From Gammaproteobacteria bacterium (GTDB lineage Bacteria; Pseudomonadota; Gammaproteobacteria; GCA-001735895), in assembly GCA_024638385.1 (NCBI GenBank), contig JAHEKJ010000029.1, positions 1-36,032 of the forward strand: a stretch of 36,032 nt of DNA, given 5' to 3'. Of this stretch, positions 7,114 to 36,032 are shown piece after piece. A program made the position numbers and the translations under genes. Below the pieces are notes generated by a model. It worked only from the letters and a program-made list of their open reading frames with translations. It was not told where the DNA came from and did no database searches. Numbering within the stretch: position 1 is the stretch's first letter; every line of letters starts with the position of its first letter.

Positions 7114-8301
7114 TCAGTCCGCCCGCAGCTGCGCGTACCAGGTCGCGATGGTCGCGCGCTCTTCGTCGGTCATGCCGGTCAGGTTGCCGATCGGCATGTA
7201 GCGCGTCTGCACCGACACCGCGACGCGCTCGGCGTACTGGCGCCATTGCGCGGGCGATTCGAGCACGATGCCGAGCGGCGCCTCGGCGAAGCCGGGCTGG
7301 GCCGGCTTCGCCGCATGACAGGAGATGCAGCGCGCCTGCATGATCAGCGCGATTTCGTCGTCACCGATGCGCGCGGCGCCGGATTCGACCGCCGCCGGGC
7401 GCAGGTACCAGGCCACCCCCAGCAGCAGAATTACCGCGACCGCCGGCAATGCCAGCGGCGCGCGGCCCGAGTGGCGCATGACGAAATACTGCCGGATCAG
7501 CACGCCGGCGAGCATGATCAGGATCAGCACCAGCCAGCCCCGCGGGTGGCTGTAGGTCATCGGGTAATGGTTGCTGATCATGACGAACAGCACCGGCAGC
7601 GTGAAATAGGTGTTGTGTACCGAGCGCTGCTTGCCGATGATGCCGGGCTCGGCGTCGGGCGGCTCGCCGGCACGCATTTGCGCGACCATCCGCTTCTGCC
7701 CCGGGATGATGTGAAAGAACACGTTGGCGACCATGATCGTGCCCATGATCGCGCCCACGTGCAGGTAGGCCGCGCGCGCGCCGAACAACTGGAACAGGCC
7801 CCAGGCAGCGAACGCGACGAGCACGAAGATGATCCCGGCGAGCAGGCTATCGCGACCGCGCAACAGCCGACACAAGGCGTCGTAGGCGAACCAGCCGCCG
7901 GCGAGTACCGCGACGCTGATCGCGATGCCGGCGCCGACCGACAGCTCCATGACCTGCGCATCGATCAGGTAGGTGCTCGCGCCGAACCAGTAGATCAGCG
8001 CCAGCAGGGCCATGCCCGACAGCCAGGTCGTATAGGCCTCCCACTTCGACCAGTGGAGTTTTTCCGCGAGCGGCTCGCCGACGGGTCCGACGAGGTATTT
8101 CTGGCTGTTGTAGAGGCCGCCGCCGTGCACCGCCCAGAGTTCGCCGGCGACGCCGCGCCTGACGTCGTCGGCGCGCGCCGGCTCCTGCAGCGAGCTGTCG
8201 AGCATGACGAAGTAAAACGACGCGCCGATCCAGGCTACGCCGGCGATGAAATGCAGCCAACGCAACAGCAGGTTGGCCCAGTCGAGCAGATAGGCTTCCA
8301 T
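7114..8301 (-). CDS. puuD: Membrane urate hydroxylase PuuD with C-terminal cytochrome c domain
   Basis: A 395-residue polytopic membrane protein of the PuuD family, which oxidises urate to 5-hydroxyisourate and passes electrons to a fused cytochrome c rather than to oxygen. About eight hydrophobic segments cover residues 10-300 (for example 13-33, 92-112, 122-140, 153-175, 182-202, 232-245, 256-275, 282-300). Conserved polar blocks in the family are HGGGLYNSQKY, LHWSKWEAYTTW and the SVHNTYFTLPVLFVMISNHYP loop. A single haem-c site, CISCH, lies at 325-329, with Met369 in TRYMPIGN as the likely sixth ligand. The ribosome site GGGGAG is six bases before the ATG. This replaces a cofactor-free uricase; none is present in the window. 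Confidence 0.93.
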   Translation of the reverse strand: MEAYLLDWANLLLRWLHFIAGVAWIGASFYFVMLDSSLQEPARADDVRRGVAGELWAVHGGGLYNSQKYLVGPVGEPLAEKLHWSKWEAYTTWLSGMALLALIYWFGASTYLIDAQVMELSVGAGIAISVAVLAGGWFAYDALCRLLRGRDSLLAGIIFVLVAFAAWGLFQLFGARAAYLHVGAIMGTIMVANVFFHIIPGQKRMVAQMRAGEPPDAEPGIIGKQRSVHNTYFTLPVLFVMISNHYPMTYSHPRGWLVLILIMLAGVLIRQYFVMRHSGRAPLALPAVAVILLLGVAWYLRPAAVESGAARIGDDEIALIMQARCISCHAAKPAQPGFAEAPLGIVLESPAQWRQYAERVAVSVQTRYMPIGNLTGMTDEERATIATWYAQLRAD

Positions 8302-13091: not shown

Positions 13092-13939
13092 GCGCGTTTC
13101 CCCGGCCGATCGGTTTCGGCTTCGTCGCGCGACCCCGCGGATTGCCGGCGAGCGACGACCTGCAGCAGTTCGGCGGCCACCGCGATCGCGATCTGCGCCG
13201 GTTGCTTGCCGTCGATGCCGTCGATGCCGATCGGACAGGTCAGGCGGGCGAAGCGAGCCGGGTCCATGCCGCGGCGCGCGAGCCGGGTCTCGAAGCTGCG
13301 GCGCTTGCCGCGCGAGCCGATCAGGCCGAAATAGGTGAAGTCGTTGCGCGCGAGAATCTGCGCCGTCAGCCGCAGATCGAGTCCGTGGTCGTGGGTCATG
13401 ACGAGGAATAGCGCGCCGGCCGGCGCCGCGTCGATCTCGGCCTCCGGCGTGTCGCTGCAAATCGTCTCGACGCCGGGCGGCGGTTCGTCCGGCAGGACGC
13501 CGTCGCGGGTATCGATCCAGCGGACGCGAAACGGCAGATCGGCGAGCGCGCGGACCAGCGCGCTGCCGACATGACCCGCGCCGAACAGGTAGAGGTCGAC
13601 CAGCCGTTCGTCGATCTCGGCGCGGGACCAGTCGGCGTCGGCGTCGAGGCGTTCGAACAGCAGGTTGACGAGGCCGCCGCAGCACTGGCCGAGCCCGGCG
13701 CCGAGCGGAAACCGGCGCAGGCCGCCCGCGTCGCCCGCCGCGAGCGCGTCGCGGGCGATGCGGCAAGCCTGGTACTCGAGATTGCCGCCGCCGATCGTGC
13801 CGAACTGTTCGTCGGCGGTGACGATCATCTTCGCGCCGGGTTCGCGCGGCGTCGAACCGACGATCGAGTCGACGCTGACGAGCATCGCCGGGACGCGCTC
13901 GCGCCGCAGGCGCTTGAGAATCTGTTGCCAGCTGCTCAT
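13088..13939 (-). CDS. xdhC: XdhC, molybdenum-cofactor insertion factor for xanthine dehydrogenase
   Basis: A 283-residue XdhC/CoxI-family protein. XdhC binds the molybdenum cofactor, promotes its sulfuration and hands it to XdhB. Visible: N-terminal XdhC_CoxI domain (MLVSVDSIVGSTPREPGAKM, GTIGGGNLEYQA, LGAGLGQCCGG) and a C-terminal Rossmann-like domain (LYLFGAGHVGSALVRALADL, FLVMTHDHGLDL, YFGLIGSRGKRRSF, CPIGIDGIDGKQPAQIAIAVAAEL). It lies between xdhB and the transporter ATPase with ATGA overlaps on both sides, so all are translationally coupled. Confidence 0.95.
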
Positions 13940-16257: not shown

Positions 16258-17702
16258 CACGCAGTCTCCGCGAACACGTTGATCGCGCGCACCGGGTCGG
16301 CGGCGCGGGTTTCGAGGTAGAAACGGTACAGCAGGTTGGCGGTCGCGCGGCGACGATAGTCGGCGCTCGCGCGCATGTCGGATAACGGCGCGAAGTCTTC
16401 GCCGAGTTTCGCCTGCGCCGCGCGTATCGTGTCCTCGTTCCAGGCCTTGCCGCGCAAGAACTTCTCGGTCCTGGTCGCGCGTTTCGGAATCGCGGCCATG
16501 CCGCCGAGCGCGATGCAGGCGTCGGCGACGCTGTCGCCATCGAGCCTGAGCGCGAGCGCCATGCAGACTGCCGAAATGTCCTGGTCGAAACGCTTGCTCA
16601 GCTTGTAACAGCGCAATTGCGTGTCGGCGGCGCGCGGCGGCAGCCGGATCGCCTCGATGAACTCACCCGGCCGCATCGCGTTCTTCATGTAGTCGAGGTA
16701 GAGATACTCGAGCGCGAGTTCGCGGCGCTCGTCGCCGCGGCGCAGCAGCGCGCGCGCGCCGATCGCGATCAGCGCCGGCATCGAATCGCCGATCGGCGAA
16801 CCGTTGGCGACGTTGCCGACCAGCGTGCCGGCGTTGCGCACCGGCACCGACGAAAAGCGGCGGAACATTTCGTAGAACTCGGGATAAACCGGTTCGAGCG
16901 CGGCAAAGGCGTCCTCGAGCGACACCGCAGCGCCGATCGTCATGCCGTCCTTGCCCGTCTCGATGCGACGCAGGTCCGTCGCGTTGCCGAGGTAGATGAT
17001 CGTCGGCAGCTCGCGCAGCTGCTTGGTCACCCACAGGCCGACATCGGTGCCGCCGGCGAGAATCTGCGCGTCGGGATGCGCGGCGTAGATTTCGGCGAGC
17101 TCGTCGCCGCTGGCCGGCGCGAAATAGCGCGCGTCGCCGTGCTCGAAGGCGAGACCCTGCTTGCGCGCGAGCGCGCGCAATTGCTTGATCAATTGCTTGT
17201 CGCGGTTGTCGGGCTCGGGGTAATCGCGCAGGTGCAGGCAGGCGTCGATGATCGGCCGGTAACCGGTGCAGCGGCACAGGTTGCCCGACAGCGCGTCGTC
17301 GATATCCTCGCGCGTCGGTTTCGCGTTGTGCTGGTAGAGCGCGAACATCGACATGACGAAGCCCGGCGTGCAAAAACCGCACTGCGAACCGTGATAGTCG
17401 ACCAGGCTTTGCTGCGCCGGGTGCAGGCTGCCGTCCGGAGCCTTGAGCGATTCGACCGTGAACAGCGCCTTGCCGTCGAGCGTCGGCACGAACTGGATGC
17501 AGGCATTGACCGCGCGGTAACGCAGGCACTTGCCGTCGAGCTCGGCGAGCACGACCGTGCAGGCACCGCAGTCGCCCTCGGCGCAACCCTCCTTGCTGCC
17601 GACCCGGCGCAGGTCTTCGCGCAGGTACTGCAGCACCGTGCGCGTGGGTTCGATCGATTCGATTTCGACGGTCTCGCCGTCGAGGATAAAACGGATGGCC
17701 AT
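16257..17702 (-). CDS. xdhA: Xanthine dehydrogenase small subunit XdhA ([2Fe-2S]/FAD)
   Basis: A 481-residue electron-transfer subunit. The plant-type [2Fe-2S] cluster uses Cys40, Cys45, Cys48 (GCAEGDCGACTV) and Cys68; the second cluster uses Cys108, Cys111 (CGFC), Cys143 and Cys145 (CRC). The FAD domain follows from about residue 200 (ILAGGTDVGLWV; NAGTLVGNVANGSPIGDSMP) and ends with the CO_deh_flav_C region. It moves electrons from the molybdenum site in XdhB through the clusters to FAD and NAD+. I start at ATG 17702 ([10 protein letters not shown]), which overlaps the uraH stop as TGATG. An upstream in-frame start at 17732 would add ten residues inside uraH. Confidence 0.95.
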   Translation of the reverse strand: MAIRFILDGETVEIESIEPTRTVLQYLREDLRRVGSKEGCAEGDCGACTVVLAELDGKCLRYRAVNACIQFVPTLDGKALFTVESLKAPDGSLHPAQQSLVDYHGSQCGFCTPGFVMSMFALYQHNAKPTREDIDDALSGNLCRCTGYRPIIDACLHLRDYPEPDNRDKQLIKQLRALARKQGLAFEHGDARYFAPASGDELAEIYAAHPDAQILAGGTDVGLWVTKQLRELPTIIYLGNATDLRRIETGKDGMTIGAAVSLEDAFAALEPVYPEFYEMFRRFSSVPVRNAGTLVGNVANGSPIGDSMPALIAIGARALLRRGDERRELALEYLYLDYMKNAMRPGEFIEAIRLPPRAADTQLRCYKLSKRFDQDISAVCMALALRLDGDSVADACIALGGMAAIPKRATRTEKFLRGKAWNEDTIRAAQAKLGEDFAPLSDMRASADYRRRATANLLYRFYLETRAADPVRAINVFAETA

Positions 17703-18052
17703 CAGCTGCCCCGGTAAGTCGAGTAGCTCCACGGCGACACCAGCAGCGGCACGTGGTAGTGCGCGTCGGTGTCGGCGATGCCGAAACGGATCACGACCTC
17801 GTCGACGAACGGCGGGTCCGGCAGGTCGGCTACGCGGTTGCGAAAATAGTCGCCGGCTTCGAATACCAGCTCGTAGGTGCCGGCGCGAATTTCGCCGGCG
17901 TCGAGGATCGGGGCGTCGAGGCGGCCGTCGTCATTGGTCGTCGCCGCGGCCACGTGCTTGCGCTCGGGCGTCAGCCGGTAAAGGATGACCACGACGCCGC
18001 CGGCCGGAACCCCGTGTGCGGTATCGAGCACGTGCGTGGTTAATCTCCCCAT
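17702..18052 (-). CDS. uraH: 5-hydroxyisourate hydrolase (transthyretin-like)
   Basis: A 116-residue transthyretin-like enzyme that opens 5-hydroxyisourate to OHCU. Family hallmarks are the N-terminal [14 protein letters not shown] (catalytic His7), Arg in DGRLDAP, the [19 protein letters not shown] tail with its catalytic His, and the diagnostic C-terminal YRGS. The ATG at 18052 gives the standard N-terminus [11 protein letters not shown] at 18061 and TTG at 18058 are possible but add residues without family support. It is the first gene of the long minus-strand run, downstream of the divergent promoter region shared with the GntR regulator. It acts right after PuuD and before UraD. Confidence 0.95.
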
Positions 18053-18103
18053 GACCAACACCCCCCCCGTTGTCGAGCCGCTAAAATCGCACTAAACGCA
18101 AAA

Positions 18104-18115: not shown

Positions 18116-18125
18116 TCCGATAGAT

Positions 18126-18137: not shown

Positions 18138-18189
18138 TTCGATTCCATGCTAAACTTCGCCCGTTCGTTCACGTCGAGGTCGACATCGC

Positions 18190-18894
18190 ATGCCGCAAAA
18201 TCGCGCCAGCTTCAACGAAGACGAGGTGCTGCGACAGATCGAGCAAGCCGTGCTCGACCATCGGCTGCCGCCCGGGACCAAGCTCAAGGAAGTCCAGCTC
18301 GCGAACCTGTTCGGCGTCAAGCGCGGCCTGATTCGCAAGGTCCTCACGCGGCTCGCGCATTCGCGGCTGGTCGAACAGACGCCGCATCGCGGCGCGACCG
18401 TCGCGCGGCCGTCGGTGCAGGAAGGCCGCGACCTGTTCGCGACCCGCCGCGTGCTCGAGGCCGCGATCATCGAGACTCTGATCGAAAAAACCGACGATGC
18501 GATGCTGGCCCGCCTGCGCGAGTTGCTCGACGCCGAGGAGCGGGCTTACGCACTCGGCGACTCGGAGCAGGCGCTCGCGCAATCGATCGACTTTCACCGC
18601 GAGCTCGCGAGGCTTGCCGGCAACAGTGTGCTCGAGGAATTCCTGAGCGACATCATCCGCCGCACGCCGCTCGTGATCCTGACCCATCTCGGCGACGACG
18701 CACAAAACCAGTGCCGCAACCAGGAGCACGCCGACATCGTCGACGCGATCGCGCGGCGCGATCGGCAGGCGGCGATCGACTTGATGCACCGCCACCTGCT
18801 GCATATCGAACAGCGCATCCGGCACAAGCCCGAGACACCGCAAGCCGACCTCGAGGCCCTGCTGATGCCGCAGGCCAACAAGGTTCCGGCATGA
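18190..18894 (+). CDS. GntR-family transcriptional regulator (FCD type) of purine catabolism
   Basis: A 234-residue regulator. The N-terminal winged helix (about 10-72) contains GTKLKEVQLANLFGVKRGLIRKVLTRLAHSRLVE and RGATVARPS. The C-terminal FCD ligand-binding domain (about 80-215) has the usual ATRRVLEAAIIETL, DFHRELARLAGN and HADIVDAIARRDRQAAIDLMHRHL pattern, whose His/Asp residues usually hold a metal and an organic-acid ligand. It overlaps puuE by ATGA and faces the uraH-xdh run. The two operators in the divergent gap support local autoregulation. A purine intermediate such as urate or allantoin would be a logical effector; this is inference. Confidence 0.9.
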   Translation: MPQNRASFNEDEVLRQIEQAVLDHRLPPGTKLKEVQLANLFGVKRGLIRKVLTRLAHSRLVEQTPHRGATVARPSVQEGRDLFATRRVLEAAIIETLIEKTDDAMLARLRELLDAEERAYALGDSEQALAQSIDFHRELARLAGNSVLEEFLSDIIRRTPLVILTHLGDDAQNQCRNQEHADIVDAIARRDRQAAIDLMHRHLLHIEQRIRHKPETPQADLEALLMPQANKVPA

Positions 18895-19814
18895 GCGATT
18901 ACCCGCGCGACCTGATCGGTTACGGCGGCAGTCCGCCGCACGCCGACTGGCCCGGCGATGCACGCGTCGCCGTGCAGTTCGTGCTCAACTACGAGGAAGG
19001 CGGCGAAAGCTGCGTGCTGCACGGCGATGCCGGCTCCGAGCAGTTCCTGTCCGAGATCATCGGCGCCGCGAGTTACCCGGCGCGGCACATGAGCATGGAG
19101 TCGATCTACGAGTACGGCTCGCGCGCCGGCGTCTGGCGGGTGCTGCGCGAGTTCGAGTCGCGCGGTTTGCCGCTGACGATCTTCGGCGTGTCGATGGCGC
19201 TCGAGCGCCATCCCGACCTCGCCCGCGCCTGCATCGAGCTCGGCCACGAGATCGCCTGCCACGGCTTGCGCTGGATTCATTACCAGGACGTCGACGAGGA
19301 TACCGAGCGCGCACACATGCGCGATGCGCTCGACATCATCGAGCGGCTGACCGGCAGCCGGCCGCTCGGCTGGTACACCGGCCGCGACAGTCCCAACACG
19401 CGCCGCCTGGTCGTCGAGCAGGGCGGCCTGCTCTACGATTCGGATTACTACGGCGACGACCTGCCGTTCTGGACCCGGATCGCGATCGCCGACGGCACGC
19501 ACCGCGATCATCTGGTGGTGCCCTACACGCTCGACGCCAACGACATGCGCTTCGCCACCGCGCAGGGATTCAACACCGGCGAGCAGTTCTTTCAGTACCT
19601 GCGCGACGCCTTCGACGTGCTCCATGCCGAGGGCGAGGACGCGCCGAAGATGATGTCGATCGGCCTGCATTGCCGGCTCGTCGGCCGTCCCGGCCGCTTC
19701 CGCGCGCTACAGCGCTTTCTCGACCACGTGCAGGCGCACGAGCGAGCCTGGATCTGCCGCCGCATCGACATCGCGCGCCACTGGATCGAGCGGCACCCGC
19801 CGGGCGCGAGCTGA
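18891..19814 (+). CDS. puuE: PuuE-type allantoinase (polysaccharide-deacetylase fold)
   Basis: A 307-residue cofactor-light allantoinase that hydrolyses allantoin to allantoate; it is unrelated to the amidohydrolase AllB. Marks of the family: start MSDYPRDLIGYGGSPPHADWPGDARVA, VLNYEEGGE, YGSRAGVWRVLREFESRGLPLTIFGV, the GHEIACHGLRWIHY motif, GWYTGRDSPNTRRLVVEQGG and the DSDYYGDDLPFW block. The ATG at 18891 forms ATGA with the gntR stop; upstream open sequence in this frame overlaps gntR and is Arg-rich, so it is excluded. It sits with uraD in the order gntR-puuE-uraD, common in purine clusters. Confidence 0.94.
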   Translation: MSDYPRDLIGYGGSPPHADWPGDARVAVQFVLNYEEGGESCVLHGDAGSEQFLSEIIGAASYPARHMSMESIYEYGSRAGVWRVLREFESRGLPLTIFGVSMALERHPDLARACIELGHEIACHGLRWIHYQDVDEDTERAHMRDALDIIERLTGSRPLGWYTGRDSPNTRRLVVEQGGLLYDSDYYGDDLPFWTRIAIADGTHRDHLVVPYTLDANDMRFATAQGFNTGEQFFQYLRDAFDVLHAEGEDAPKMMSIGLHCRLVGRPGRFRALQRFLDHVQAHERAWICRRIDIARHWIERHPPGAS

Positions 19815-19815
19815 A

Positions 19816-20334
19816 ATGGCCGCCCGGCTCTCGCTCGACGAACTCAACCGCGCCGACGAGGCGGACTTCGTCGCGCGGCTCGGCGCGATCTACGAGCACT
19901 CGCCGTGGGTCGCCGAACGGGTCGTTGCGGCGCGCCCGTTCGGCACGCGCGCGGCGCTCGCGGCGGCGATGGCCGACGCGGTCGCGGCCGCGTCCGACGA
20001 GCGCAAGCTCGCGTTGCTGCGCGCGCACCCCGAGCTCGCCGGCAAGGAAGCGAGCGCCGGCACCCTGACCTCGGATTCGAAGCGCGAACAGGCCGGCGCC
20101 GGGCTCGCCAGCTGCACGCGCGAAGAGCTCGCCCGGATCGGCGATCTGAACCGGGCGTACCGCGACAAGTTCGGCTTTCCGTTCATCATCGCCGTGACCG
20201 GGCTCGACAAGCACCAAATCATCGCGGCGATGCAGCGCCGGCTCGATCATACCCCCGGCGACGAGTTCGCCACCGCCCTGGCCGAGGTCGACAAGATCGC
20301 GCGTATCCGTCTCGACGCGCTGTTCGATGACTGA
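19816..20334 (+). CDS. uraD: OHCU decarboxylase UraD
   Basis: A 172-residue enzyme that decarboxylates 2-oxo-4-hydroxy-4-carboxy-5-ureidoimidazoline (OHCU) to S-allantoin. Catalytic His71 lies in the invariant HPELAGK motif; Glu91-Gln92 in the SKREQAGAGL motif and the NRAYRDKFGFPFIIAVTG segment are the other family signatures. Length matches the family. It starts one base after the puuE stop codon and overlaps the following gene by eight bases. With PuuD and UraH it completes stereospecific urate-to-allantoin conversion. Confidence 0.95.
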   Translation: MAARLSLDELNRADEADFVARLGAIYEHSPWVAERVVAARPFGTRAALAAAMADAVAAASDERKLALLRAHPELAGKEASAGTLTSDSKREQAGAGLASCTREELARIGDLNRAYRDKFGFPFIIAVTGLDKHQIIAAMQRRLDHTPGDEFATALAEVDKIARIRLDALFDD

Positions 20335-25006: not shown

Positions 25007-25960
25007 ATGCCAGTACCCGATTTCGACGACGTGCTCGACGCCGCGCGGCGCATCGCGCCGCACGTGCATCGCACGCCGGTCATGACTTCGACCGAGTTCG
25101 ACCGGCGCGTCGGCGCAAGCCTGTTTTTCAAGTGCGAAAACCTGCAAAAGGTCGGCGCGTTCAAGGCCCGCGGCGCGTGCAACGCGATCTTCGGGCTCGA
25201 CGACGCGATCGCCGCGCGCGGCGTCGCCGCGCATTCGTCGGGCAATCACGCGGCGGCCGTCGCCTACGCCGCGGCGCGCCGCGGCGTGCCGGCGACGCTC
25301 GTGATCCCGCGCAACGCGCCGGCGGCCAAGCTGGCTGCGGTACGCGCCTACGGCGGCGAGATCATCGAATGCGAACCGACGCTGGCGGCGCGCGAGGCCC
25401 GCCTCGCCGAGTTCGTCGCCGCCAGCGGCGCCGATCTCGTCCACCCCTACAACGACGCGCGCGTCATCGCCGGGCAGGCGACCTGCGCGCTCGAACTGCT
25501 CGACGAAGTCCCCGACCTCGATGCGATCCTGACCCCGGTGGGCGGCGGCGGGCTGATCTCGGGCACCTGCCTGAGCGTCGCCGCGCGCGCGCCGGCGACC
25601 CGCGTGATCGGCGCCGAACCCGCCGGCGCCGACGACGCCTGCCGCTCGCGCGCGGCGGGCCGGTTGCTGCCGGCCGAAAATCCACAGACCGTCGCCGACG
25701 GGCTGCGTTCGAGCCTCGGCGAGCTGACCTGGCATTTCGTCTCGCGCGACGTCGACGAGATCCTGCTCGCCGGCGACGACGAGATTCTCGACGCCATGTA
25801 CCTGACCTGGCAGCGCATGAAGATTCTCATCGAGCCGTCGGCGGCGGTGCCGCTGGCGGTCCTGCTCGCGCAGCGCGAAAAGTTCGCCGGGCAGCGTATC
25901 GGCGTGATCCTCTCCGGCGGCAACGTCGATTTGAAAAACTGCCCGGGCTGCCGCGGATGA
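25007..25960 (+). CDS. beta-Hydroxyaspartate dehydratase (BhcB-like, serine-racemase/threonine-dehydratase fold)
   Basis: A 317-residue fold-type II PLP enzyme without an ACT domain. PLP Lys53 lies in KVGAFKARGACNA, and Ser78 in SSGNH corresponds to the second catalytic residue of serine racemase. The phosphate-binding GGGGLISG loop is at 179-186, with SGGNVD at the C-terminus. Such enzymes include hydroxyaspartate dehydratases, serine racemase and threonine dehydratase; adjacency to a BhcC-type aldolase (ATGA overlap) points to hydroxyaspartate. It would convert beta-hydroxyaspartate to iminosuccinate, which hydrolyses to oxaloacetate plus ammonia or is reduced to aspartate. The start is weakly supported: GGGGGCCCC precedes the ATG and a 16-base direct repeat spans it. 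Confidence 0.8.
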   Translation: MPVPDFDDVLDAARRIAPHVHRTPVMTSTEFDRRVGASLFFKCENLQKVGAFKARGACNAIFGLDDAIAARGVAAHSSGNHAAAVAYAAARRGVPATLVIPRNAPAAKLAAVRAYGGEIIECEPTLAAREARLAEFVAASGADLVHPYNDARVIAGQATCALELLDEVPDLDAILTPVGGGGLISGTCLSVAARAPATRVIGAEPAGADDACRSRAAGRLLPAENPQTVADGLRSSLGELTWHFVSRDVDEILLAGDDEILDAMYLTWQRMKILIEPSAAVPLAVLLAQREKFAGQRIGVILSGGNVDLKNCPGCRG

Positions 25961-27093
25961 GCGCGCCCGAAATCGGATTCGATGTCCCCGCCGCGATCGG
26001 CATGCGCATCGACGAGGTCGCGACGCCGGCGCTGCTCATCGATCTCGACGCCTTCGAGCTCAACGTCGCGACGCTGAAGCACCGGCTCGAGGCCGCCGGC
26101 GTCCGCCTGCGCGCGCACGCCAAGACCCACAAGTCGGTCGACATCGCGCGCTACCAGCTCGCCCACGGCGGCGCGATCGGCATCTGCTGCCAGAAAGTCT
26201 CGGAGGCCGAGGTCATGGTCGCCGGCGGCATCGGCGACGTGATGGTATCGAACCAGGTGGTCGATCCGGCCAGGATCGAGCGCCTCGCACGGCTCGCGAC
26301 GCGCGCGCGGATACTCGTTTGCGTCGACGATTCCGGTAACGTCGCCGATCTCGCGGCCGCGGCCCGACGCCACGACGTGACGCTCGAATGCCTGGTCGAA
26401 ATCGATTGCGGCGCCGGCCGCTGCGGCGTCGCCCCGGGCGCACCGGCGGTCGAGATCGCGCAGGCGATCGCGACGGCGCCCGGCCTCGCTTTCGCCGGCC
26501 TGCAGGCATACCAGGGCGCGGCGCAACATATTCGCGACCACGCGGCGCGCGCGGCGGCGATCGCGACCGCCGCCGGACACACCGCGGACACGCTGGCGCT
26601 GCTGCGCGCGGCCGGGCTCGACTGCGCCATCGTCGCCGGTGCCGGAACCGGCAGCTACGCTTTCGAGGCGGCGTCGGGGGTCTATAACGAAATGCAGTGT
26701 GGCTCGTATATCTTCATGGATGCCGACTATCAGCGGGTGCGCGACGCGCGCGGCGAGCCGATCGGCGAATTCGCCAACAGCCTTTTCATATTGACTTCGA
26801 TCATGTCCAAGCCGCGTGCCGGCGCCGCGGTCTGCGACGCCGGGCTCAAGGTCATGAGCCTCGATTCCGGGCTGCCGGTCGTTTTCGACCGCAGCGATAT
26901 CGAGTACGTCAACTGCTCGGACGAACACGGCGTGCTTGCCGACCCGGCGGACCGGCTGGCGTTGAACGACCGCCTGCGGCTCGTGCCCGGGCATTGCGAT
27001 CCGACCTGCAATCTGCACGACTGGTACGTCGGGCTGCGCGGCGAGCGCGTCGAGTGCCTGTGGCCGGTCAGCGCGCGCGGCAAGTCCTGGTAG
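25957..27093 (+). CDS. bhcC: beta-Hydroxyaspartate aldolase (BhcC-like, D-threonine-aldolase family)
   Basis: A 378-residue PLP and divalent-metal enzyme. The match to Paracoccus BhcC as I remember it is strong from end to end: GFDVPAAIGM, AHAKTHKSVD with PLP Lys56, GICCQKVSEAEV, VEIDCGAGRCGV, GLQAYQGAAQH, NEMQCGSYIFMDADYQR, FILTSIMS, DAGLKVMSLDSGLPVVF, CSDEHGV, the metal site GHCDPTC (His346, Cys347), and WPVSARGKSW at the end. BhcC condenses glycine with glyoxylate to beta-hydroxyaspartate in the cytoplasm. It overlaps the dehydratase stop by four bases and is followed by a terminator for the opposing unit. 3-hydroxy-D-aspartate aldolase is the other name for this family. Confidence 0.92.
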   Translation: MSAPEIGFDVPAAIGMRIDEVATPALLIDLDAFELNVATLKHRLEAAGVRLRAHAKTHKSVDIARYQLAHGGAIGICCQKVSEAEVMVAGGIGDVMVSNQVVDPARIERLARLATRARILVCVDDSGNVADLAAAARRHDVTLECLVEIDCGAGRCGVAPGAPAVEIAQAIATAPGLAFAGLQAYQGAAQHIRDHAARAAAIATAAGHTADTLALLRAAGLDCAIVAGAGTGSYAFEAASGVYNEMQCGSYIFMDADYQRVRDARGEPIGEFANSLFILTSIMSKPRAGAAVCDAGLKVMSLDSGLPVVFDRSDIEYVNCSDEHGVLADPADRLALNDRLRLVPGHCDPTCNLHDWYVGLRGERVECLWPVSARGKSW

Positions 27094-27095
27094 CC

Positions 27096-27123
27096 AAAAA
27101 AAACGCCGACACGAGGCCGGCGT
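27096..27123 (-). terminator. Rho-independent terminator of the aminotransferase unit
   Basis: On the minus strand ACGCCG and CGGCGT (27123-27118 with 27108-27103) form a six-base stem around a nine-base loop, directly followed by eight T residues (27103-27096). It lies after the aminotransferase stop and immediately next to the bhcC stop, so it also marks the end of the convergent pair. Confidence 0.8.
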
Positions 27124-27142
27124 ACAAACGGAGGAGCAACAA

Positions 27143-28408
27143 TCAGCGACCGTCGAGATGCGCGTTCAGGTCGTCGAGAATCTTCTGCTTGTCGACCTCG
27201 GCGCCCATCTCGATCATCGCGTCGGCGAAGCGGCCGACGATGTCGTTGATGGCAGCCGGGGTCAGCTGGTTCAGAATACCGATACGCACCTGGGTCGGCT
27301 CGGACAGCGTCGGCCAGATCGCGAAACCGCGCGCGCGGCAGTTGCCGACCAGTTCCTTTTCCTTGCCGGCAAGCTCGCCCGGCAGGTTGCAGACGACCAG
27401 GCTGGTCATGTTCGACGTGACTTCGCAGCCCATCGCCTCGACCGCGGCGCGCAGACCCTGCTCGTAGAACGCGTAGTCGGCGGCTTTTTGCTCGCGACCG
27501 TGCTGCAACAGCAGGCGCAAGGCCTCGTGGAAGGACGCGACCGAATACCCGGAATGCGTGCGGTGGTAGGCCGCGGCCTCGACATCTTCGCCGTTGTCGA
27601 TGCACCAGTGGCGTGCACCGAGGATCGGATGATGGTCGTAGCTCGGGCAACCGCGTTGCCTGACCAGATCGATCACCTTGTCGCTGAAGCTGACCGGCGC
27701 GTAGGTGCCCGGCAGGCCGAGAATGCCTTTCTGCGGGCAGGACGCCCAGGTCGTGACCGCCGGATAGTCGTCGATGTCGAAGTAAGCGATGCCGAGGCTC
27801 GAGACGCAGTCGATGATGCCCATGACGTCGTGCTTCGCGCAGGCAGCGTCGAAACCCCGCAGGTCGTTGATGCGGCCGCTGCCGGTCTCCCAGTGCGCCA
27901 TCACGGCCCACATCGGCTTGTGCTCGGCGAGCGCGGCCTCGACGATCTCGCCGGTGACCGACTGGCCATGCGGCACATTGATCGTGACGACGTTGGCCGG
28001 CTTCGGATCCAGCGAATTAGCGGCGAGGTCCTCGCGACTCGACGCTTTCAGGCGCACGTTGAGGTCGTCGATGCCGCTGAAGGTGCCGTTGACGAAGGTC
28101 ACGACGGTGTCGCCCGGCAGGATCGGCGAAAACGCGCAGTCGAGTCCGCTCCAGCCGGTGCCGACGACGGCGTAGGTGTAAACGTTTTTGGTGCCGAAAA
28201 CCTCGCGCAGCATCAGCTTGGCCTCTTTCATGCCGCGAATGACGTCGGCCTGCATGTGGTCGGCGACGCCGGCGGCGGCGAAGCGTTCGAGCACCCGCGG
28301 GTCGGTGTTGCCCGGCCCCGGGCCGGCCGCGAGGGTCTGCGGAATCTCGAGCTGGGGTGGAATCTGGAAATCGTGGTCGTGTTTCTGCACTCTGGCCTGT
28401 GATGTCAT
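27143..28408 (-). CDS. Class V aminotransferase, alanine/ureidoglycine/aspartate--glyoxylate type
   Basis: A 421-residue fold-type I aminotransferase (AGXT-like). Landmarks: AAGPGPGNTDPRVLERFA, VVGTGWSGLDCAFSPILPGD, VPHGQSVTGEIVE, MAHWETGSGRI, GIIDCVSSLG, and PLP Lys227 in CPQKGILGLPG. Enzymes of this group use glyoxylate as amino acceptor, giving glycine. The sequence does not look like Paracoccus BhcA as I remember it, so aspartate--glyoxylate activity is not assured. Ureidoglycine--glyoxylate aminotransferase (PucG type) is a good alternative given the purine context. It is downstream of, and 29 bases from, the IclR regulator, and converges on bhcB-bhcC. GGGAGACGAGACC precedes the ATG. Confidence 0.82.
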   Translation of the reverse strand: MTSQARVQKHDHDFQIPPQLEIPQTLAAGPGPGNTDPRVLERFAAAGVADHMQADVIRGMKEAKLMLREVFGTKNVYTYAVVGTGWSGLDCAFSPILPGDTVVTFVNGTFSGIDDLNVRLKASSREDLAANSLDPKPANVVTINVPHGQSVTGEIVEAALAEHKPMWAVMAHWETGSGRINDLRGFDAACAKHDVMGIIDCVSSLGIAYFDIDDYPAVTTWASCPQKGILGLPGTYAPVSFSDKVIDLVRQRGCPSYDHHPILGARHWCIDNGEDVEAAAYHRTHSGYSVASFHEALRLLLQHGREQKAADYAFYEQGLRAAVEAMGCEVTSNMTSLVVCNLPGELAGKEKELVGNCRARGFAIWPTLSEPTQVRIGILNQLTPAAINDIVGRFADAMIEMGAEVDKQKILDDLNAHLDGR

Positions 28409-28437
28409 GGTCTCGTCTCCCGTGTTCAGTATTCTGT

Positions 28438-29277
28438 TCAGGCACCGTTCGGCCGGCGGCCGCCCAGCGCCTGGGTAATCTCGTCGGCGGTCTGCCGGAT
28501 CGCGACGCCGAGCTCGCCCAGACGGTCGTCGACCATCCGCGCCTTCGGCCCCGACAGCGATATCGCCGCCAGCGCCTGTCCGTTTTCGTCGAAGATCGGC
28601 GCCGCGACGCAGCGCAGGCCGACCGCGTGCTCCTCGTCGTCGAGGGCGTAACCGCGCCCGCGGACGGTTGCGAGTTCTTCGCGCAATTGCGCCGGGTTGT
28701 CGATCGTGCGCTCGGTGTAGCGGCCCAGACCGCGGCGTTCGAGAATCGCCGCGAGCCGGTCGTCGTCGAGATGCGCGAGCAGCGCCTTGCCGACGCCGGA
28801 GGCATGCACCGGCGAACGACTGCCGAGCCGCACGATCATGCGCATGACCTCGCGCGACTCGACCTGGCTGATGAATACGACCTCGCCGTCGTCGATGACG
28901 CCGAGGTTGACGGTCTCGCCGCAGCGCTCCATCAAGGCCTGCATGTGTGGCCGCGCGCCGGCGACGAAATCGCGGCGCTGGACGAAGGCGTTACCCACCG
29001 TGAACGCCTTCAAACCGATATACCAGACGCCGAGTTGCGGATCCTGCTCGACGAAATCGTGTTCTTCGAAGGTGCTGAGCAGGCGATGCGCGGTCGCCGC
29101 CGGAATGCCGAGCTGGTGCGACAGATCGGTCAGGTTCATGCCGTCGGGCGTCTCGGCGAGCCGCTCGAGCAGCAGCAAGGCGCGACTTAACGATTGATTC
29201 TTGCCGTCATTGCCACGATTATTCGACCCCGGTGGCCGGCCGCGCTTGCGTGCGAGGTTGGTAATCGGACTGGTCAT
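28438..29277 (-). CDS. IclR-family transcriptional regulator (BhcR candidate)
   Basis: A 279-residue regulator. A basic RKRGRPPGSN tail precedes the winged HTH (about 28-95; SLSRALLLLERLAE, NLTDLSHQLGIPAATAHRLLSTFEEHDFVEQ), then the IclR effector domain (about 100-275; VQRRDFVAGARPHMQALMERCGETVNLG, HASGVGKALLAHL, GYALDDEEHAVGLRCVAAPIFDENG, AAISLSGPKARM). IclR proteins in glyoxylate gene sets (BhcR, GclR, AllR) commonly respond to glyoxylate, which fits here but is inference. It is the first gene of the iclR-aminotransferase unit; no second regulator is near bhcB-bhcC. An IclR-like half-palindromic site lies in the AT-rich region upstream. Confidence 0.92.
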   Translation of the reverse strand: MTSPITNLARKRGRPPGSNNRGNDGKNQSLSRALLLLERLAETPDGMNLTDLSHQLGIPAATAHRLLSTFEEHDFVEQDPQLGVWYIGLKAFTVGNAFVQRRDFVAGARPHMQALMERCGETVNLGVIDDGEVVFISQVESREVMRMIVRLGSRSPVHASGVGKALLAHLDDDRLAAILERRGLGRYTERTIDNPAQLREELATVRGRGYALDDEEHAVGLRCVAAPIFDENGQALAAISLSGPKARMVDDRLGELGVAIRQTADEITQALGGRRPNGA

Positions 29278-29470: not shown

Positions 29471-29541
29471 CACGCCCCGGAAGCGTTTGGCAAGACCGTC
29501 GTGGAAAGCCTGCGCGCGGCCGGGGCAAGCGTCGTTGCGTG
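29471..29541 (+). pseudogene. Possible C-terminal remnant of a lost gene
   Basis: A 23-codon open stretch, starting right after an in-frame TAA, reads HAPEAFGKTVVESLRAAGASVV and ends A-stop (TGA). It has the local GC-rich third-position bias and no ATG or GTG suited to a start. It abuts the AT-rich island, as if an upstream part of a gene had been deleted or replaced. It is too short to assign a family with confidence. Confidence 0.35.
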
Positions 29542-29622
29542 ACGCCGGTTCAGGAATTGTTCAGCCGAATCGACGACACTTCGCGACACATTCCGTTTCG
29601 CAACATCGAGCGTGGAGGCCGA

Positions 29623-30585
29623 ATGCGAATAGCAATCTACGGTAGCGGCGGCGTCGGCGGCTACTTCGGAGGACGACTGGCGCAGCTGGGAAAAGAGGTC
29701 GTCTTCATCGCCCGCAACGAGAACCTGGCGGCGTTACGCTCGCGCGGCCTCAAGGTCGGCAGCATTGCCGGCGATTTCATTCTCGACAAGGTCAAGGCCA
29801 GCGGCAACCCGGCCGAAGTCGGCGTCGTCGACTACGTGCTGTGCGGCGTCAAGACCTGGCAGGTGTCCGGCGCGGCCAGGGCCATGCTGCCAATGGTCGG
29901 ACCCGAAACGCTCGTCATTCCGTTGCAGAACGGGATCGAGGCACCCGATCAACTCATGACCGCGCTGAATCCGGCCAACGTGCTCGGCGGGCTCTGCGCG
30001 ATCGTCGCCTTTCTCGAGGCACCCGGACACATCAAGCATACCGGCGGCAACCCGCTGATCCGTTTCGGTCACCTCGACAATCGTCCCGATGCGCGGGTCA
30101 ACGAACTGGCCGAGGCTTTCAACCACTGCAGCGGCGTCAAGGCCAGCATCCCCGACGACATCCGGGTCGCGATGTGGCAGAAGTTCATGCTGATTACGCC
30201 GTGGAGCGGGCTCGGCTCGGTATCGCGCGCGCCGATCGGCGTGCTGCTCGAACAGCCGGAGACGCGCGCCCTGCTGACCGAGGGGATCGACGAGATTTAC
30301 CGCGTCGGTCGCGCGCGCGGCGTCGGGCTGCCGGAGGACAGCGTCGCCAGAACCCTCGAAACCCTCGACAGCATCACCCCGAATTCGACCACGTCGATGC
30401 AGCGCGACCTGATTCGCGGTCGCCCGTCGGAACTCGACGCGCAATGCGGGGCGGTCGTACGGCTGGGCCTGGAAGCCGGCGTCGACACGCCGGTCAACCG
30501 CTTCTTTCTCTACAGCCTGCGCTCGCTCGAGTTACGCGCCCGCGGGCATCTCAAGTTCAACCGCCGCTCAACGCCGCGCCAGTGA
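29623..30585 (+). CDS. Ketopantoate-reductase-family oxidoreductase (ApbA/PanE-like)
   Basis: A 320-residue NAD(P)H-dependent reductase with an N-terminal Rossmann fold ([23 protein letters not shown], residues 1-23). Further blocks are [35 protein letters not shown]-like [38 protein letters not shown], and [21 protein letters not shown] with the conserved C-terminal polar residues of the family. I start at ATG 29623, with GGAGG four bases upstream, because GTG 29539 would add 28 residues before a family N-terminus. Known members reduce 2-dehydropantoate, but paralogues take other 2-keto or imino acids. It is convergent with malate synthase and overlaps its 3' end by 18 bases. Confidence 0.83.
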
Positions 30586-32739
30586 CTTGGCCTCGCGGCG
30601 CCGCGGGTGCAGCACGAACTCGGTGTAGCCGTTGGCCAGCTCGCGGCCCTTGAAAACGAGATCGAGCGCGGCCTGAAAGGCGACGCTGGCGTCGAAATCC
30701 GGCGCCATGTCGCGGTACTCGGGATCGCCGGCGTTTTGTCGATCGACGATCTCCGCCATCTTTTCGAAGACCTTGCGTACCTGTTCCGGCGTGGTGATAC
30801 CGTGATGCAACCAGTTGGCGATGTGCTGACTCGAGATCCGCAGCGTCGCGCGATCCTCCATCAGGTTGGTATCGGAAATGTCCGGCACCTTGGAGCAACC
30901 GATGCCCTGCTCGACCCAGCGCACGACGTAGCCGAGGATGCCCTGGGCATTGTTCTCGAGTTCGCGCACGAGTTCGCCATTGGTGATCTTGCGCCCGTCG
31001 AGCAGCGGCAAGGTCAGAATGTCGTCGAGGCTCGCGCGCTGCGCCCGCGCCAGCGATTGCTGGCGCGCGGCGACGTCGACCTGGTGGTAGTGCATCGCGT
31101 GCAGCGCCGCGGCCGTCGGCGACGGTACCCAGGCCGTGTTTGCGCCGGCGCGCGGGTGCGCGATCTTCTGCTGCATCATCGCGCGCATGTTGTCCGGTGC
31201 GGCCCACATGCCCTTGCCGATCTGGGCGTGCCCCGGCAAGCCGCAGGCCAGGCCGATATCGACGTTCCAGTCCTCGTAGGCCAATAGCCAGGTCGAGTTC
31301 TTGATCTCGTTCTTCGGGATCATCGCGTCGGCTTCCATGTCGGTATGGATTTCGTCGCCGGTGCGGTCGAGAAAACCGGTGTTGATGAAAACGACGCGGT
31401 CGCTGGCCGCGCGAATGCATTCCTTCAGGTTGACCGTCGTGCGCCGCTCCTCGTCCATGATGCCGATCTTGAGCGTCTTCGGCTCGAGCCCGAGCGCGTC
31501 CTCGACCATCGCGAACAGCCGGACCGCCTCGGCGACCTCGGCCGGGCCGTGCATCTTGGGCTTGACGATGTAGACGCTGCCGCTGCGGCTATTCCGAAAC
31601 TTGCCGTTGCCGAGCAGGTCGTGCCTGGCCGCGAGCGCGGTCACCATCGCGTCGAGAAAGGTTTCCGGCACTTCCTCGCCGTCGCAGGTGACCGCGTCGG
31701 TGTACATGTGGGTGCCGACGTTGCGCACGAACATCAGGCTGCGGCCGGGCACCTCGAGCGGTTCGCCGTCGGGGCCGATGTACTCGAGGTCCGGGTTGAG
31801 ACTGCGCTCCATCGCCTCCTTGCCGCGCATGACCGTGGCGGTCAGGTCGCCGCGCATCAAACCCATCCAGTTACGGTAGACCCGTACCTTGTCCTCGGCG
31901 TCGACCGCCGCGACCGAGTCCTCGCAATCCATGATCGTCGTGATCGCCGACTCGATACGCACGTCGTAGATACTGGCGAGATCGCCCTGACCGATGTAAT
32001 AGCCTTCGCCGATCAGCAGCTCGATGTGCAGGTTGTTGTGGCGGAACAGGATCGCTTCTGGCTGCTCCGGATCTCCGCGGTAACCGGCGAAGCACTCGCG
32101 CCAGCCCAGCTCGGTCCGGCTGCCGTCGCCCATGACGACGATGAGCTTGCCCGACCTGACCTTGTAGCGCACCGCGTAGCCGTGACTGCCGACCGCCAGC
32201 GGTACCGCCTGGTCGAGGAAGTCGCGGACGTAGCGAATAACCTGATGGCCGCGCACCGGGTTGTACTTCGCGGTGCGCTTGCAGCCGTCGACCTCGAGGA
32301 TCACGTCGGTGCCATAAAGCGCGTCGTAGAGGCTGTACCAGCGCGCATTGGCGGCGTTGAGCGCGTAGCGCGCGTTGTCGACCGGCACGACCAGTTGCGG
32401 CCCGGCGATCTCGCCGACCTCGGGATCGACGTTGTCGGTGGTGACTTCGAAAGGCTCACCCTCGGGCACGAGGTAACCGATTTCCTCGAGAAAGGCCTTG
32501 TAATCGGCCAGCTCGACTCGTCCCGGCTGCTTCTTGTGCCACGCATCGATTTTCCGCTGCAGCTCGTCGCGAAACTCGAGCAGGCGCCGGTTCTCCGGGC
32601 CGAGCTCGGCATTGATTTTGGCAAAGGCCTGCCAGAAATCGGCGGCATCGACGCCGCTGCCCGGCGTTATCTCTTTTTCGATCAGATCGTAGAGGGCGCG
32701 GTCGACACTGAGACCGCTGACTTCAACTCGGTCGCTCAT
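30568..32739 (-). CDS. glcB: Malate synthase G
   Basis: A 723-residue monomeric enzyme that condenses glyoxylate with acetyl-CoA to malate; Escherichia coli GlcB has the same length. Catalytic residues can be placed by alignment to the E. coli numbering I know: Arg339 (FVRNVG), metal ligands Glu430 (GIMDEERR) and Asp458 (NTGFLDR), and base Asp629 (LMEDRATLR). The oxidisable Cys615 matches E. coli Cys617. The start [13 protein letters not shown] has AGGACAG upstream. A -10 of TATACT (32803-32798) without a good -35 may be its promoter. It is the main visible route from glyoxylate to the TCA cycle and complements the hydroxyaspartate genes nearby. Confidence 0.97.
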
Positions 32740-33833: not shown

Positions 33834-35531
33834 GTGCCGGGTCCACGCAATCGATCCGCGAACTTGAACACACAGCCTGCCACCCGCAGCGGCGCCGAGG
33901 CGCTGATCGCGGGACTCCGCGACAACGGCATCGACCGAATCTTCTGCATTCCCGGCGAAAGCTACCTCGCGGCGCTCGACGCGCTCTACGATTGCCCCGA
34001 GATCGAGTTGATCGTTTGCCGCAACGAGGGCGGCGCCGCCTACATGGCGGAGGCCGACGGCAAGCTGACCGGCCGTCCCGGCGTCTGCTTCGTCACCCGT
34101 GGGCCCGGCGCGATGAACGCCAGCGGCGGCCTGCACGTCGCGCTGCAGGATTCGACGCCGATGATCCTGCTCGTCGGCCAGGTCGCGCGCCGCGATCTCG
34201 ACCGCGAAGCCTTCCAGGAGATCGATTACCGCCGCGCGTTTTCGCAAGTTGCCAAGTGGGTCGCGCAGGTCGACGACGCCGATCGGATACCCGAGTACCT
34301 GAACCGCGCGTTCAGCGTCGCCACCGGCGGCCGCCCGGGCCCGGTGGTGCTGGCGCTGCCCGAGGACATGCTCGCGGACCGGACCACCGCCGGCGACGCC
34401 GGCCCGTGGCGGCCGGTCGAGATCAGCCCCGCGGCGGAAGACGTCGCCGGCGTCGGCGAAATCCTCGCCGCCAGCGAGCGCCCGTTCGTCATCGTCGGCG
34501 GCAGCGGCTGGAGCGACGCGACTCGCGTCACGCTCGAGAACTTCGCCGCCGAAAACAACCTGCCGATTGCCAACTCGTTTCGCTGCCAGGATTATTTCGA
34601 CAACCAGCACGCCTGTTACGCCGGCGATCTCGGCCTCGGCGTCAACCCGGACCTGGTGCGGCGAATTCGCGAGGCCGACTGCCTGCTCGTGATCGGCGCA
34701 CGGCTCGGCGAGATGACGACCGGTGGCTTCACGCTGCTCGACATTCCGCGCCCGCGCCAGCGCCTGATCCACGTCCACGCCGGCATCGAGGAGCTCGGCC
34801 ACGTCTACCAGCCGGAGCTCGCGATCAACGCAACCCCGGCGCGCTTCGTCGCGGCGCTTGCCAATTGCCGGATCGATACCGGCGCCGCCTGGCGCGAGCG
34901 GGTCGAGGCCGCGCACGCCGACTACCTTGCCTGGAACGCGCCGCTCGCCAACGACGGCGAGGTGCAACTCGCCGAGATCGTCCATGCGCTGCGCCGCCTG
35001 GTTCCTGAAGATGCGCTGGTCTGCAACGGCGCCGGCAACAACACCTGCTGGCTGCATCGATTCTTCCGCTATCGCCGCTACCGTACGCAGCTCGCGCCGA
35101 CCAGCGGCACGATGGGTTACGGTCTGCCGGCGGCGATCGCGGCCAGGCTGCGCCATCGCGAACGGACCGTCGTCGCCTTTGTTGGCGACGGCGACCTGAT
35201 GATGAACCTGCAGGAATTCGCGACCGCGGCACAGTATCGCCTTGGGCTCGTGCTGATCGTCGTCAACAACGGCATCTACGCGACGATTCGCATGCACCAG
35301 GAGCGGGATTATCCGGCGCGGGTGATCGGCACCGACATGGTCAATCCGGACTTCGTCGCGCTGGCCGAGGCGCACGGCGCGCACGCCGAGCGGGTGTCGC
35401 GGACCGACCAGTTCGAGGCGGCCTTTGGCCGCGCGCTGGACAGCAGGCGGCTGGCGCTGATCGAAGTCCGGATCGAGCCCGGGGTGCTGACGCCGACGGC
35501 GACCGTGGCGAGTCTGCGTGCGCGAGGCTGA
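33834..35531 (+). CDS. ThDP-dependent acetolactate-synthase-like enzyme
   Basis: A 565-residue enzyme with PYR, central and PP domains. The activating Glu65 is in VCRNEGGAAYMAEADGK, followed by GRPGVCFVTRGPGAMNASGG; the ThDP/Mg motif VGDGDLMMN...VVNNGIYATI lies near the C-terminus. Glyoxylate carboligase uses Val at the Glu position, so this looks like a normal Glu-type enzyme rather than Gcl, despite the glyoxylate neighbourhood. Possible activities include acetolactate synthase, sulfoacetaldehyde acetyltransferase, or a 2-keto acid decarboxylase. The start is uncertain: GTG 33834 gives ten extra residues; TTG 33864 (LNTQPATRSGAEALIAGL) matches family starts but has no ribosome site. No small subunit is nearby. 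Confidence 0.85.
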   Translation: MPGPRNRSANLNTQPATRSGAEALIAGLRDNGIDRIFCIPGESYLAALDALYDCPEIELIVCRNEGGAAYMAEADGKLTGRPGVCFVTRGPGAMNASGGLHVALQDSTPMILLVGQVARRDLDREAFQEIDYRRAFSQVAKWVAQVDDADRIPEYLNRAFSVATGGRPGPVVLALPEDMLADRTTAGDAGPWRPVEISPAAEDVAGVGEILAASERPFVIVGGSGWSDATRVTLENFAAENNLPIANSFRCQDYFDNQHACYAGDLGLGVNPDLVRRIREADCLLVIGARLGEMTTGGFTLLDIPRPRQRLIHVHAGIEELGHVYQPELAINATPARFVAALANCRIDTGAAWRERVEAAHADYLAWNAPLANDGEVQLAEIVHALRRLVPEDALVCNGAGNNTCWLHRFFRYRRYRTQLAPTSGTMGYGLPAAIAARLRHRERTVVAFVGDGDLMMNLQEFATAAQYRLGLVLIVVNNGIYATIRMHQERDYPARVIGTDMVNPDFVALAEAHGAHAERVSRTDQFEAAFGRALDSRRLALIEVRIEPGVLTPTATVASLRARG

Positions 35532-35847: not shown

Positions 35848-36032
35848 ATGGCGAATCCCCTGCTGATCACCGACCTCGTGCTGCGTGACGCGTCACAGTC
35901 GCTGCTCGCGACGCGCGTGCGCATCGAGGACATGCTGCCGATCTGCGACCAGCTCGACCGGGTCGGCTACTGGTCGCTCGAAACCTGGGGTGGCGCGACC
36001 TTCGACGCGTGCATTCGCTACCTCGGCGAGGA
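35848..36032 (+). CDS. oadA: Oxaloacetate decarboxylase alpha subunit (5' end only)
   Basis: The first 61 complete codons read [61 protein letters not shown], the start of the carboxyltransferase TIM barrel of OadA/PycB enzymes. The [12 protein letters not shown] motif holds the metal-binding Asp and the biotin-enzyme Gln. In a complex with OadG and OadB it would split oxaloacetate to pyruvate and CO2, pumping sodium. The rest, including any biotin domain, lies beyond the window. Pyruvate carboxylase subunit B is the alternative, but the adjacent OadG favours a decarboxylase. Confidence 0.9.

Follow-up and report, generated by a model that had tools for sequence, protein, structure and literature searches.

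The stretch analysed here, called the window below, is the whole of contig C93 (JAHEKJ010000029.1 of assembly GCA_024638385.1), 36,032 bases in a gammaproteobacterial draft genome (4.25 Mb, 232 contigs) with 91% completeness and 5.4% contamination. It carries homologues of two enzymes of the beta-hydroxyaspartate cycle—the beta-hydroxyaspartate dehydratase BhcB and the 3-hydroxyaspartate aldolase BhcC—facing a glyoxylate-type aminotransferase and a BhcR-type regulator, and no recognisable gene for the iminosuccinate reductase BhcD accompanies them. This module is a real, conserved variant of the known beta-hydroxyaspartate system. Family assignments were based on NCBIfam model scores judged against the curated cut-offs and on Pfam matches, and relatives were examined in a survey of 57 genomes, mostly from one genus, and in a survey of 397 genomes drawn from the phylum. 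The module consists of the following genes.

25007..25960, plus strand: bhcB-like gene for a PALP-family beta-hydroxyaspartate dehydratase, 317 aa (NF045641 501.6 bits, cut-off 550; PF00291)
25957..27093, plus strand: bhcC-like gene for a 3-hydroxyaspartate aldolase, 378 aa (NF045642 605.4 bits, cut-off 690)
27143..28408, minus strand: class-V aminotransferase of the alanine:glyoxylate or ureidoglycine:glyoxylate kind, not BhcA (BhcA model 56.8 bits, cut-off 650)
28438..29277, minus strand: BhcR-type IclR regulator, just before the aminotransferase on the same strand (NF045644 356 bits, cut-off 350)

The bhcBC pair and its convergent neighbours

The original prediction described a BhcC-type aldolase overlapping a dehydratase by four bases, and this is exactly what the open reading frames, found at the predicted coordinates, contain: the bhcB stop and the bhcC start share ATGA at 25957–25960, and the products are homologues of BhcB and BhcC. 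The pair is adjacent in the relatives read as well, mostly with a gap of some tens of bases. Both window proteins match their models over nearly the full length, BhcB as the top hit of 32 families and BhcC as the sole NCBIfam match at E 1e-5. The BhcC cut-off is not decisive by itself, since three BhcCs from the same genus that are encoded within BhcD operons also score below 690 (638–653 bits). The best solved relative of the window BhcC is the D-3-hydroxyaspartate aldolase 6qkb with 464 bits; D-threonine aldolases, at 284–370 bits, are not nearer. Out of 156 positions that are invariant among 23 BhcD-linked BhcCs, the window protein retains 143, as against 107–123 in four outgroups resembling D-threonine aldolase, and the window BhcB keeps 115 of the 137 positions invariant among 22 BhcD-linked BhcBs. 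Directly upstream of bhcB, behind a response regulator and a histidine kinase, lies a gene for a receiver-domain protein (24068–24916, plus strand) whose C-terminal part has no Pfam match; it is 39–51% identical in relatives and stands immediately 5′ of bhcB in many of them.

The aminotransferase and the IclR regulator are both on the minus strand and hence convergent with bhcBC, as had been predicted, and the regulator scores above the BhcR cut-off. The Paracoccus BhcR is an activator of the bhc cluster that binds DNA less tightly in the presence of glyoxylate (PMC11323563). The homologue is not specific to the module, for it also adjoins the aminotransferase at loci without bhcBC in three genomes (G014, G024, and G027). 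The aminotransferase, at 56.8 bits against a cut-off of 650, is ruled out as BhcA. The original claim that three of the four cycle activities are present is thus too strong, although it stands for the BhcB and BhcC homologues. Solved structures closest to the aminotransferase include those of alanine:glyoxylate aminotransferase (AGT) and the ureidoglycine:glyoxylate aminotransferase PucG (about 72–101 bits), with 3-hydroxykynurenine transaminase slightly nearer (90 and 109 bits); the similarity to the former two is low, and no Pfam family is matched at E 0.001. Tyr281 of the window enzyme, which does not vary across 26 aligned sequences, corresponds to Tyr260 of human AGT, whereas PucG carries an asparagine at this position. 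The Asn264-type residue of PucG, which we take to be the active-site mark of ureidoglycine:glyoxylate aminotransferases, is therefore absent from the window enzyme, Tyr281 standing in its place. Tyr260 of human AGT has been tied to the preference for alanine (PMC6797613). Aminotransferases of this family, 70–76% identical, also occur in genomes without bhcBC nearby (L047–L051), for example in Methylobrevis pamukkalensis and Hyphomicrobium sulfonivorans.

Two gene arrangements within a single genus

A search of the window's genome for the ornithine-cyclodeaminase family, to which BhcD belongs, yields two genes, both on contig C20 and neither in the window, which agrees with the earlier statement that no such reductase is visible there. 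The first exceeds the cut-offs of two EutC models (524 and 522 bits), scores 196 bits against BhcD and is adjoined by DoeA and DoeB; the second is nearest to pyrroline-2-carboxylate reductases and scores 115 bits against BhcD. Because DoeA and DoeB lie beside the EutC-type gene, the two are assigned to an ectoine-degradation cluster, and the EutC-type gene, by its models and its neighbours, is rejected as a member of the BhcD family. The original prediction had named a clear BhcD in a complete bhc cluster elsewhere in the genome as the case that would speak against it, and none was found: no gene in the 91%-complete draft exceeds the BhcD cut-off of 500 bits, the best score being the 195–196 bits of EutC. 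Aspartate dehydrogenase could catalyze the same reaction as BhcD. As a replacement it is ruled out by its absence from all genomes of the 57-genome survey (PF01958; 3/14 control genomes positive). Nor was a BhcA over its cut-off of 650 bits found, the window gene scoring 56.8 bits and an unlinked gene on contig C171 scoring 460 bits; the C171 gene has a dehydrogenase and a transporter as neighbours by eye.

Across the 57 genomes, BhcC was matched at E 0.001 in 28 and exceeded its cut-off in five, and BhcD exceeded its cut-off in eight. Fourteen genomes, the window's own among them, share the arrangement of the window (G000, G003, G005, G006, G007, G009, G015, G017, G019, G020, G023, G025, G026, and G028). 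In all of them the aldolase and dehydratase are encoded together as adjacent bhcB and bhcC, and in 13 the first recognised gene after bhcC is the aminotransferase, in convergent orientation; in the exception, G003, about 5.5 kb with efflux-pump-like genes (by eye) intervene. Given these frequencies the arrangement is not a product of chance. In seven other genomes of the same genus (G004, G010, G011, G012, G013, G016, and G018), BhcC adjoins BhcD, and the order is bhcA-bhcB-bhcC-bhcD wherever the contig allows. BhcD exceeds its cut-off in 7/7 of these and in 0/14 of the window type, where the best scores are 124–210 bits (Fisher p 9e-6, with genomes treated as independent, which they are not). 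An unlinked BhcD in the 14 is rejected within the completeness of the drafts: the chance of missing one in every genome would be about 3e-15 from the stated completeness, again on the assumption of independence, which does not hold. The comparison of gene order in relatives that the original prediction had in view therefore finds the module conserved in 14 genomes, none with BhcD over the cut-off. The genes present, the order in which they stand, how well they are conserved, and the absence of any recognisable BhcD are matters of observation, and we are confident of the gene content of this variant.

Several genomes do not fall neatly into either set. G021 was counted in neither. G032, from another genus, is of the BhcD type, its BhcD being cut by the contig end, and G013, itself of the BhcD type, carries on another contig a further BhcB, of the window type and unaccompanied by BhcC. 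An incomplete BhcD-type cluster occurs in G008 (L138), with BhcR, BhcA, and BhcB present, BhcC not found and the BhcD match restricted to the last 33 residues.

In a BhcC tree that includes outgroups resembling D-threonine aldolase, the window type is separated, with support 98/90, from a single group made up of the BhcD-linked BhcCs and a few further sequences. This tree omits the long or odd rows G307, G063, G435, G309, and G121 and one duplicate; with all 46 rows the same grouping has support 92/100. G019 is in neither tree because its BhcC is split across two contigs. A single origin of the window-type BhcCs does not emerge, the corresponding branch reaching 66/43 in the reduced tree and two changes being needed with 46 rows. 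In the BhcB tree, the window type shares a weak branch (80/23) with the genomes that have BhcB only, and the window BhcB itself sits on a long branch of 1.12 changes per column. Two of the BhcB-only genomes, G002 and G030, are placed next to G009, which has BhcC, so that the absence of BhcC looks like loss. Both genes are under purifying selection, with ratios of nonsynonymous to synonymous substitution (dN/dS) of 0.08–0.15 in five close pairs for BhcC and 0.06–0.12 in seven close pairs for BhcB; the wider pair of window and G017 gives 0.26 for each.

Purine and glyoxylate genes around the module

To the left of the module, the window holds a set of purine-catabolic genes, and to its right a further set of genes, among them those for malate synthase G and part of an oxaloacetate decarboxylase.

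5772..7109, minus strand: guanine deaminase (TIGR02967 593.5 bits, cut-off 375)
7114..8301, minus strand: urate oxidase of the PuuD kind (PF06181 428 bits)
13936..17732, minus strand: xanthine dehydrogenase, large subunit 13936–16260 and small subunit 16257–17732 (PF20256, PF02738, PF01315, PF00941, PF03450, PF01799)
17702..18061, minus strand: 5-hydroxyisourate hydrolase, transthyretin family (PF00576 123.5 bits)
18163..18894, plus strand: GntR-family regulator, in another frame just upstream of puuE (PF00392, PF07729)
18903..19814, plus strand: allantoinase PuuE, the C-terminal part of the open reading frame 18105–19814 (TIGR03212 529 bits, cut-off 425)
19816..20334, plus strand: OHCU decarboxylase (PF09349)
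29539..30585, plus strand: ketopantoate-reductase-family oxidoreductase PanE/ApbA, divergent from bhcR (PF02558/PF08546, TIGR00745)
30568..32739, minus strand: malate synthase G (TIGR01345 1056.9 bits, cut-off 989)
33834..35531, plus strand: thiamine-diphosphate enzyme of the NF006052 subfamily (834 bits, cut-off 539)
35848..36030, plus strand: 5′ portion of a gene for an oxaloacetate decarboxylase alpha subunit that runs off the contig (90% identity to the G020 gene over 61 aa)

The genes leading from allantoate to glyoxylate, expected outside the window, are found on contig C4, where allantoicase and ureidoglycolate lyase lie side by side. Since six purine-degrading enzymes are encoded in the window and these two on C4, the genome is predicted to be capable of converting purines to glyoxylate. 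In G020 and G017 all of the purine genes and bhcBC are on one contig, with allantoicase about 20 kb from bhcBC, and the genes for PuuE and OHCU decarboxylase precede bhcB on its contig in 9/14 window-type genomes; in three others (G015, G026, and G028) the contig ends before this region. Overlapping the end of the OHCU decarboxylase gene is a gene for a uracil-DNA-glycosylase relative (20327–21082, plus strand; 161 bits to 5x3g, no Pfam match), which stands beside OHCU decarboxylase or bhcB in many relatives.

On the other side of the module, the thiamine-diphosphate enzyme is not among the matches to the glyoxylate carboligase model in its own genome at E 1e-100. That model (TIGR01504, cut-off 711 bits) is passed in 0/57 genomes and in one of 14 controls, weaker matches of 338–362 bits at E 1e-100 being present in 38 of the 57, and the glycerate route by glyoxylate carboligase is rejected for this reason. 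With no carboligase over the cut-off, malate synthase and the hydroxyaspartate branch appear as the evident routes for glyoxylate. A relative of the truncated oxaloacetate decarboxylase alpha subunit in G015 passes TIGR01108. Genes for alpha and beta-like subunits of this enzyme follow the thiamine-diphosphate enzyme in the island of several relatives (L143, L144, L064, and L150), the scanned beta piece of 139 aa scoring under the cut-off of its model. The PanE-family gene of G029 (L090, 16125–17098) is matched in two overlapping frames and is either frameshifted or misassembled.

A predicted linear route and its alternatives

We favor, with a probability of about 0.52, the reading that the window is a glyoxylate island with a BhcD-less, linear, ammonia-releasing hydroxyaspartate branch. 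BhcC would condense glyoxylate and glycine to beta-hydroxyaspartate, which BhcB would dehydrate to iminosuccinate; with no iminosuccinate reductase at hand, this product would hydrolyze to oxaloacetate and ammonia. The neighboring aminotransferase, not being BhcA, may remake glycine from glyoxylate, perhaps with alanine as the donor, while the BhcR-type regulator would sense glyoxylate, malate synthase G would consume it in parallel, and the neighboring oxaloacetate decarboxylase may carry oxaloacetate on to pyruvate. Glyoxylate derived from purines would be a likely supply among others, and the loss of nitrogen would then be cheap, the source being rich in it. From gene content we infer every catalytic step, the identity of the amino donor and of the effector, and the direction in which the route runs. 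We are moderately confident of the predicted release of ammonia. No BhcD over the cut-off was found here or in 13 relatives with the module, and where the reductase is not in excess, iminosuccinate loses its amino group by hydrolysis to oxaloacetate (PMC9889269). This much of the original proposal is supported, although the aminotransferase with which it was to operate is not BhcA.

A number of observations weigh against this reading. The window BhcB and BhcC both score under the cut-offs of their models, and the 14 window-type genomes are drafts of 62–97% completeness. In G021 a BhcD of 575 bits lies directly beside the same aminotransferase, on a contig that ends inside BhcC. BhcB is kept without BhcC in G002, G029, and G030, all with the aminotransferase and with no BhcC genome-wide at E 0.001 or remnant at E 1 in the locus; as it persists there and, in the comparisons made of G030 with G007 and with G009, is under purifying selection, BhcB may serve some function independent of BhcC. 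The purine genes, too, are linked to the module loosely and not obligately. G003 and G019 keep bhcBC without xanthine dehydrogenase, PuuE, and OHCU decarboxylase in the island stretches read, allantoicase being the only one of the purine genes searched for in the remainder of these genomes, and allantoicase was found in 10/14 window-type genomes, not in G003, G015, G019, or G026. Conversely, purine genes adjoin the aminotransferase with no bhcBC between in G024 and G027, and they lie alongside in the BhcB-only genomes G029 and G030; for G002, whose contig ends inside the gene adjoining OHCU decarboxylase, the purine evidence is a partial neighbor and an allantoicase match. Allantoicase is also present in 7/7 BhcD-type genomes of the genus, and purine breakdown as such is therefore no marker of the window type. 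From the proposed single route from purines to the tricarboxylic acid cycle there remains the gene set for purine-to-glyoxylate conversion, whereas an exclusive pathway is doubtful.

The same genes might instead serve a full, nitrogen-saving cycle, in which an unrelated or unlinked reductase (the PanE-family enzyme or EutC) stood in for BhcD and the BhcA-like aminotransferase on C171 took the part of BhcA. The PanE-family gene is indeed adjacent, the C171 enzyme reaches 460 bits against BhcA, and EutC and the other gene on C20 belong to the superfamily of BhcD. However, the presence of PanE is not tied to the absence of BhcD, since PanE also occurs in the BhcD-bearing G021 and in the BhcC-less genomes G024, G027, and G030; the two ornithine-cyclodeaminase-family genes, at 196 and 115 bits, are far from the 500 required, one of them passing EutC models in the company of DoeA and DoeB; the C171 gene is under its cut-off and stands by eye with a dehydrogenase and a transporter; and aspartate dehydrogenase is missing. 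Such a cycle seems unlikely. About as much can be said for a catabolic role, in which external 3-hydroxyaspartate would be converted by BhcB to oxaloacetate and ammonia and by BhcC to glycine and glyoxylate, the latter being used by the island. This direction needs no BhcD, and the solitary BhcB of G002, G029, and G030 would suit a hydroxyaspartate dehydratase, yet the BhcR-type regulator, malate synthase, and the purine genes favor glyoxylate as the starting compound; this account is improbable too. A shift of the pair to other substrates, with BhcC acting for example on D-threonine or a related hydroxy amino acid and BhcB on serine or threonine, would fit the scores below the equivalog cut-offs and the long branch of the window BhcB; it is improbable to a greater degree, in view of the retention of the invariant positions, in which BhcC exceeds the outgroups resembling D-threonine aldolase, and of the synteny with glyoxylate genes.

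Compared with the bhcABCD and bhcR cycle of Paracoccus denitrificans, the predicted linear branch shares homologues of BhcB, BhcC, and BhcR, the order bhcB-bhcC, and the glyoxylate theme, but no BhcD was found, the aminotransferase is not BhcA, the regulator stands with the aminotransferase and convergent to bhcBC, and the whole adjoins purine genes. The beta-hydroxyaspartate pathway described by Kornberg and Morris (1963, 1965) is said to have led by aldolase and dehydratase to oxaloacetate and ammonia, with no reductase step. This product matches the one predicted from the window; unlike in the window, where the gene set itself is without a reductase, the organism was later shown to have the four-enzyme cycle. 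As the window BhcC branches outside the BhcD-linked BhcCs compared, it is tempting to speculate that it represents a separate hydroxyaspartate lineage, with a linear, ammonia-releasing route for glyoxylate from purines, so rich in nitrogen that sparing it would serve no purpose, a route that coexists in the genus with the BhcD cycle and perhaps predates the recruitment of BhcD; we regard this broader proposal as tentative. BhcD is the step that retains the amino group, so that natural genomes with aldolase and dehydratase but without a recognisable BhcD make it testable when nitrogen saving is dispensable, and the same genus offers seven genomes with BhcC beside BhcD as a contrast. The beta-hydroxyaspartate cycle is one of two known routes for net glyoxylate assimilation and has been engineered into bacteria and plants, and glyoxylate can be obtained from purines and allantoin (PMC11323563). 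The literature searched, available in part and with the 2019 Nature paper on the cycle outside its coverage, contains no description of a BhcD-less cluster or of a purine linkage; hydroxyaspartate and ureidoglycolate gave no joint match there, while hydroxyaspartate and allantoin do co-occur.

Beyond the genus, the 397 genomes were surveyed by scoring at most 4–5 best candidates per genome among matches at E 1e-100. BhcC exceeds its cut-off in 21 genomes and BhcD in 19, all of them among the 21, and the two genes lie within about 300 bases in 18/19; in G341, the remaining genome, BhcC and BhcD are found on separate contigs, and 70 bases lie between BhcC and a contig end. Apart from the window's genome, five have a BhcC of more than 500 bits without a BhcD match (G253, G353, G121, G309, and G307). 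Three of these, from another family (G353, G121, and G307; L131, L132, and L134), have BhcC beside ureidoglycolate lyase, ureidoglycine aminohydrolase, or PuuD, and no BhcB-like gene at E 1e-60. Purine adjacency, counted within about 1.5 kb, with L108 cut by a contig end and one copy viewed in two-copy genomes, does not emerge as a feature that sets BhcC without BhcD apart in the phylum (3/5 BhcD-less versus 4/19 BhcD-type loci, Fisher p 0.13), and its occurrence at four BhcD-type loci means that the purine link is not peculiar to BhcD-less ones. Because some bhc loci of other families, too, adjoin ureidoglycolate, ureidoglycine, or 5-hydroxyisourate genes, purines are indicated, besides glycolate, as a source of glyoxylate for hydroxyaspartate chemistry. 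At the four BhcD-type loci (L105, L110, L112, and L106), the neighbor of BhcD is ureidoglycolate lyase in three and a 5-hydroxyisourate hydrolase-like gene, matched at 48% over 94 aa, in one.

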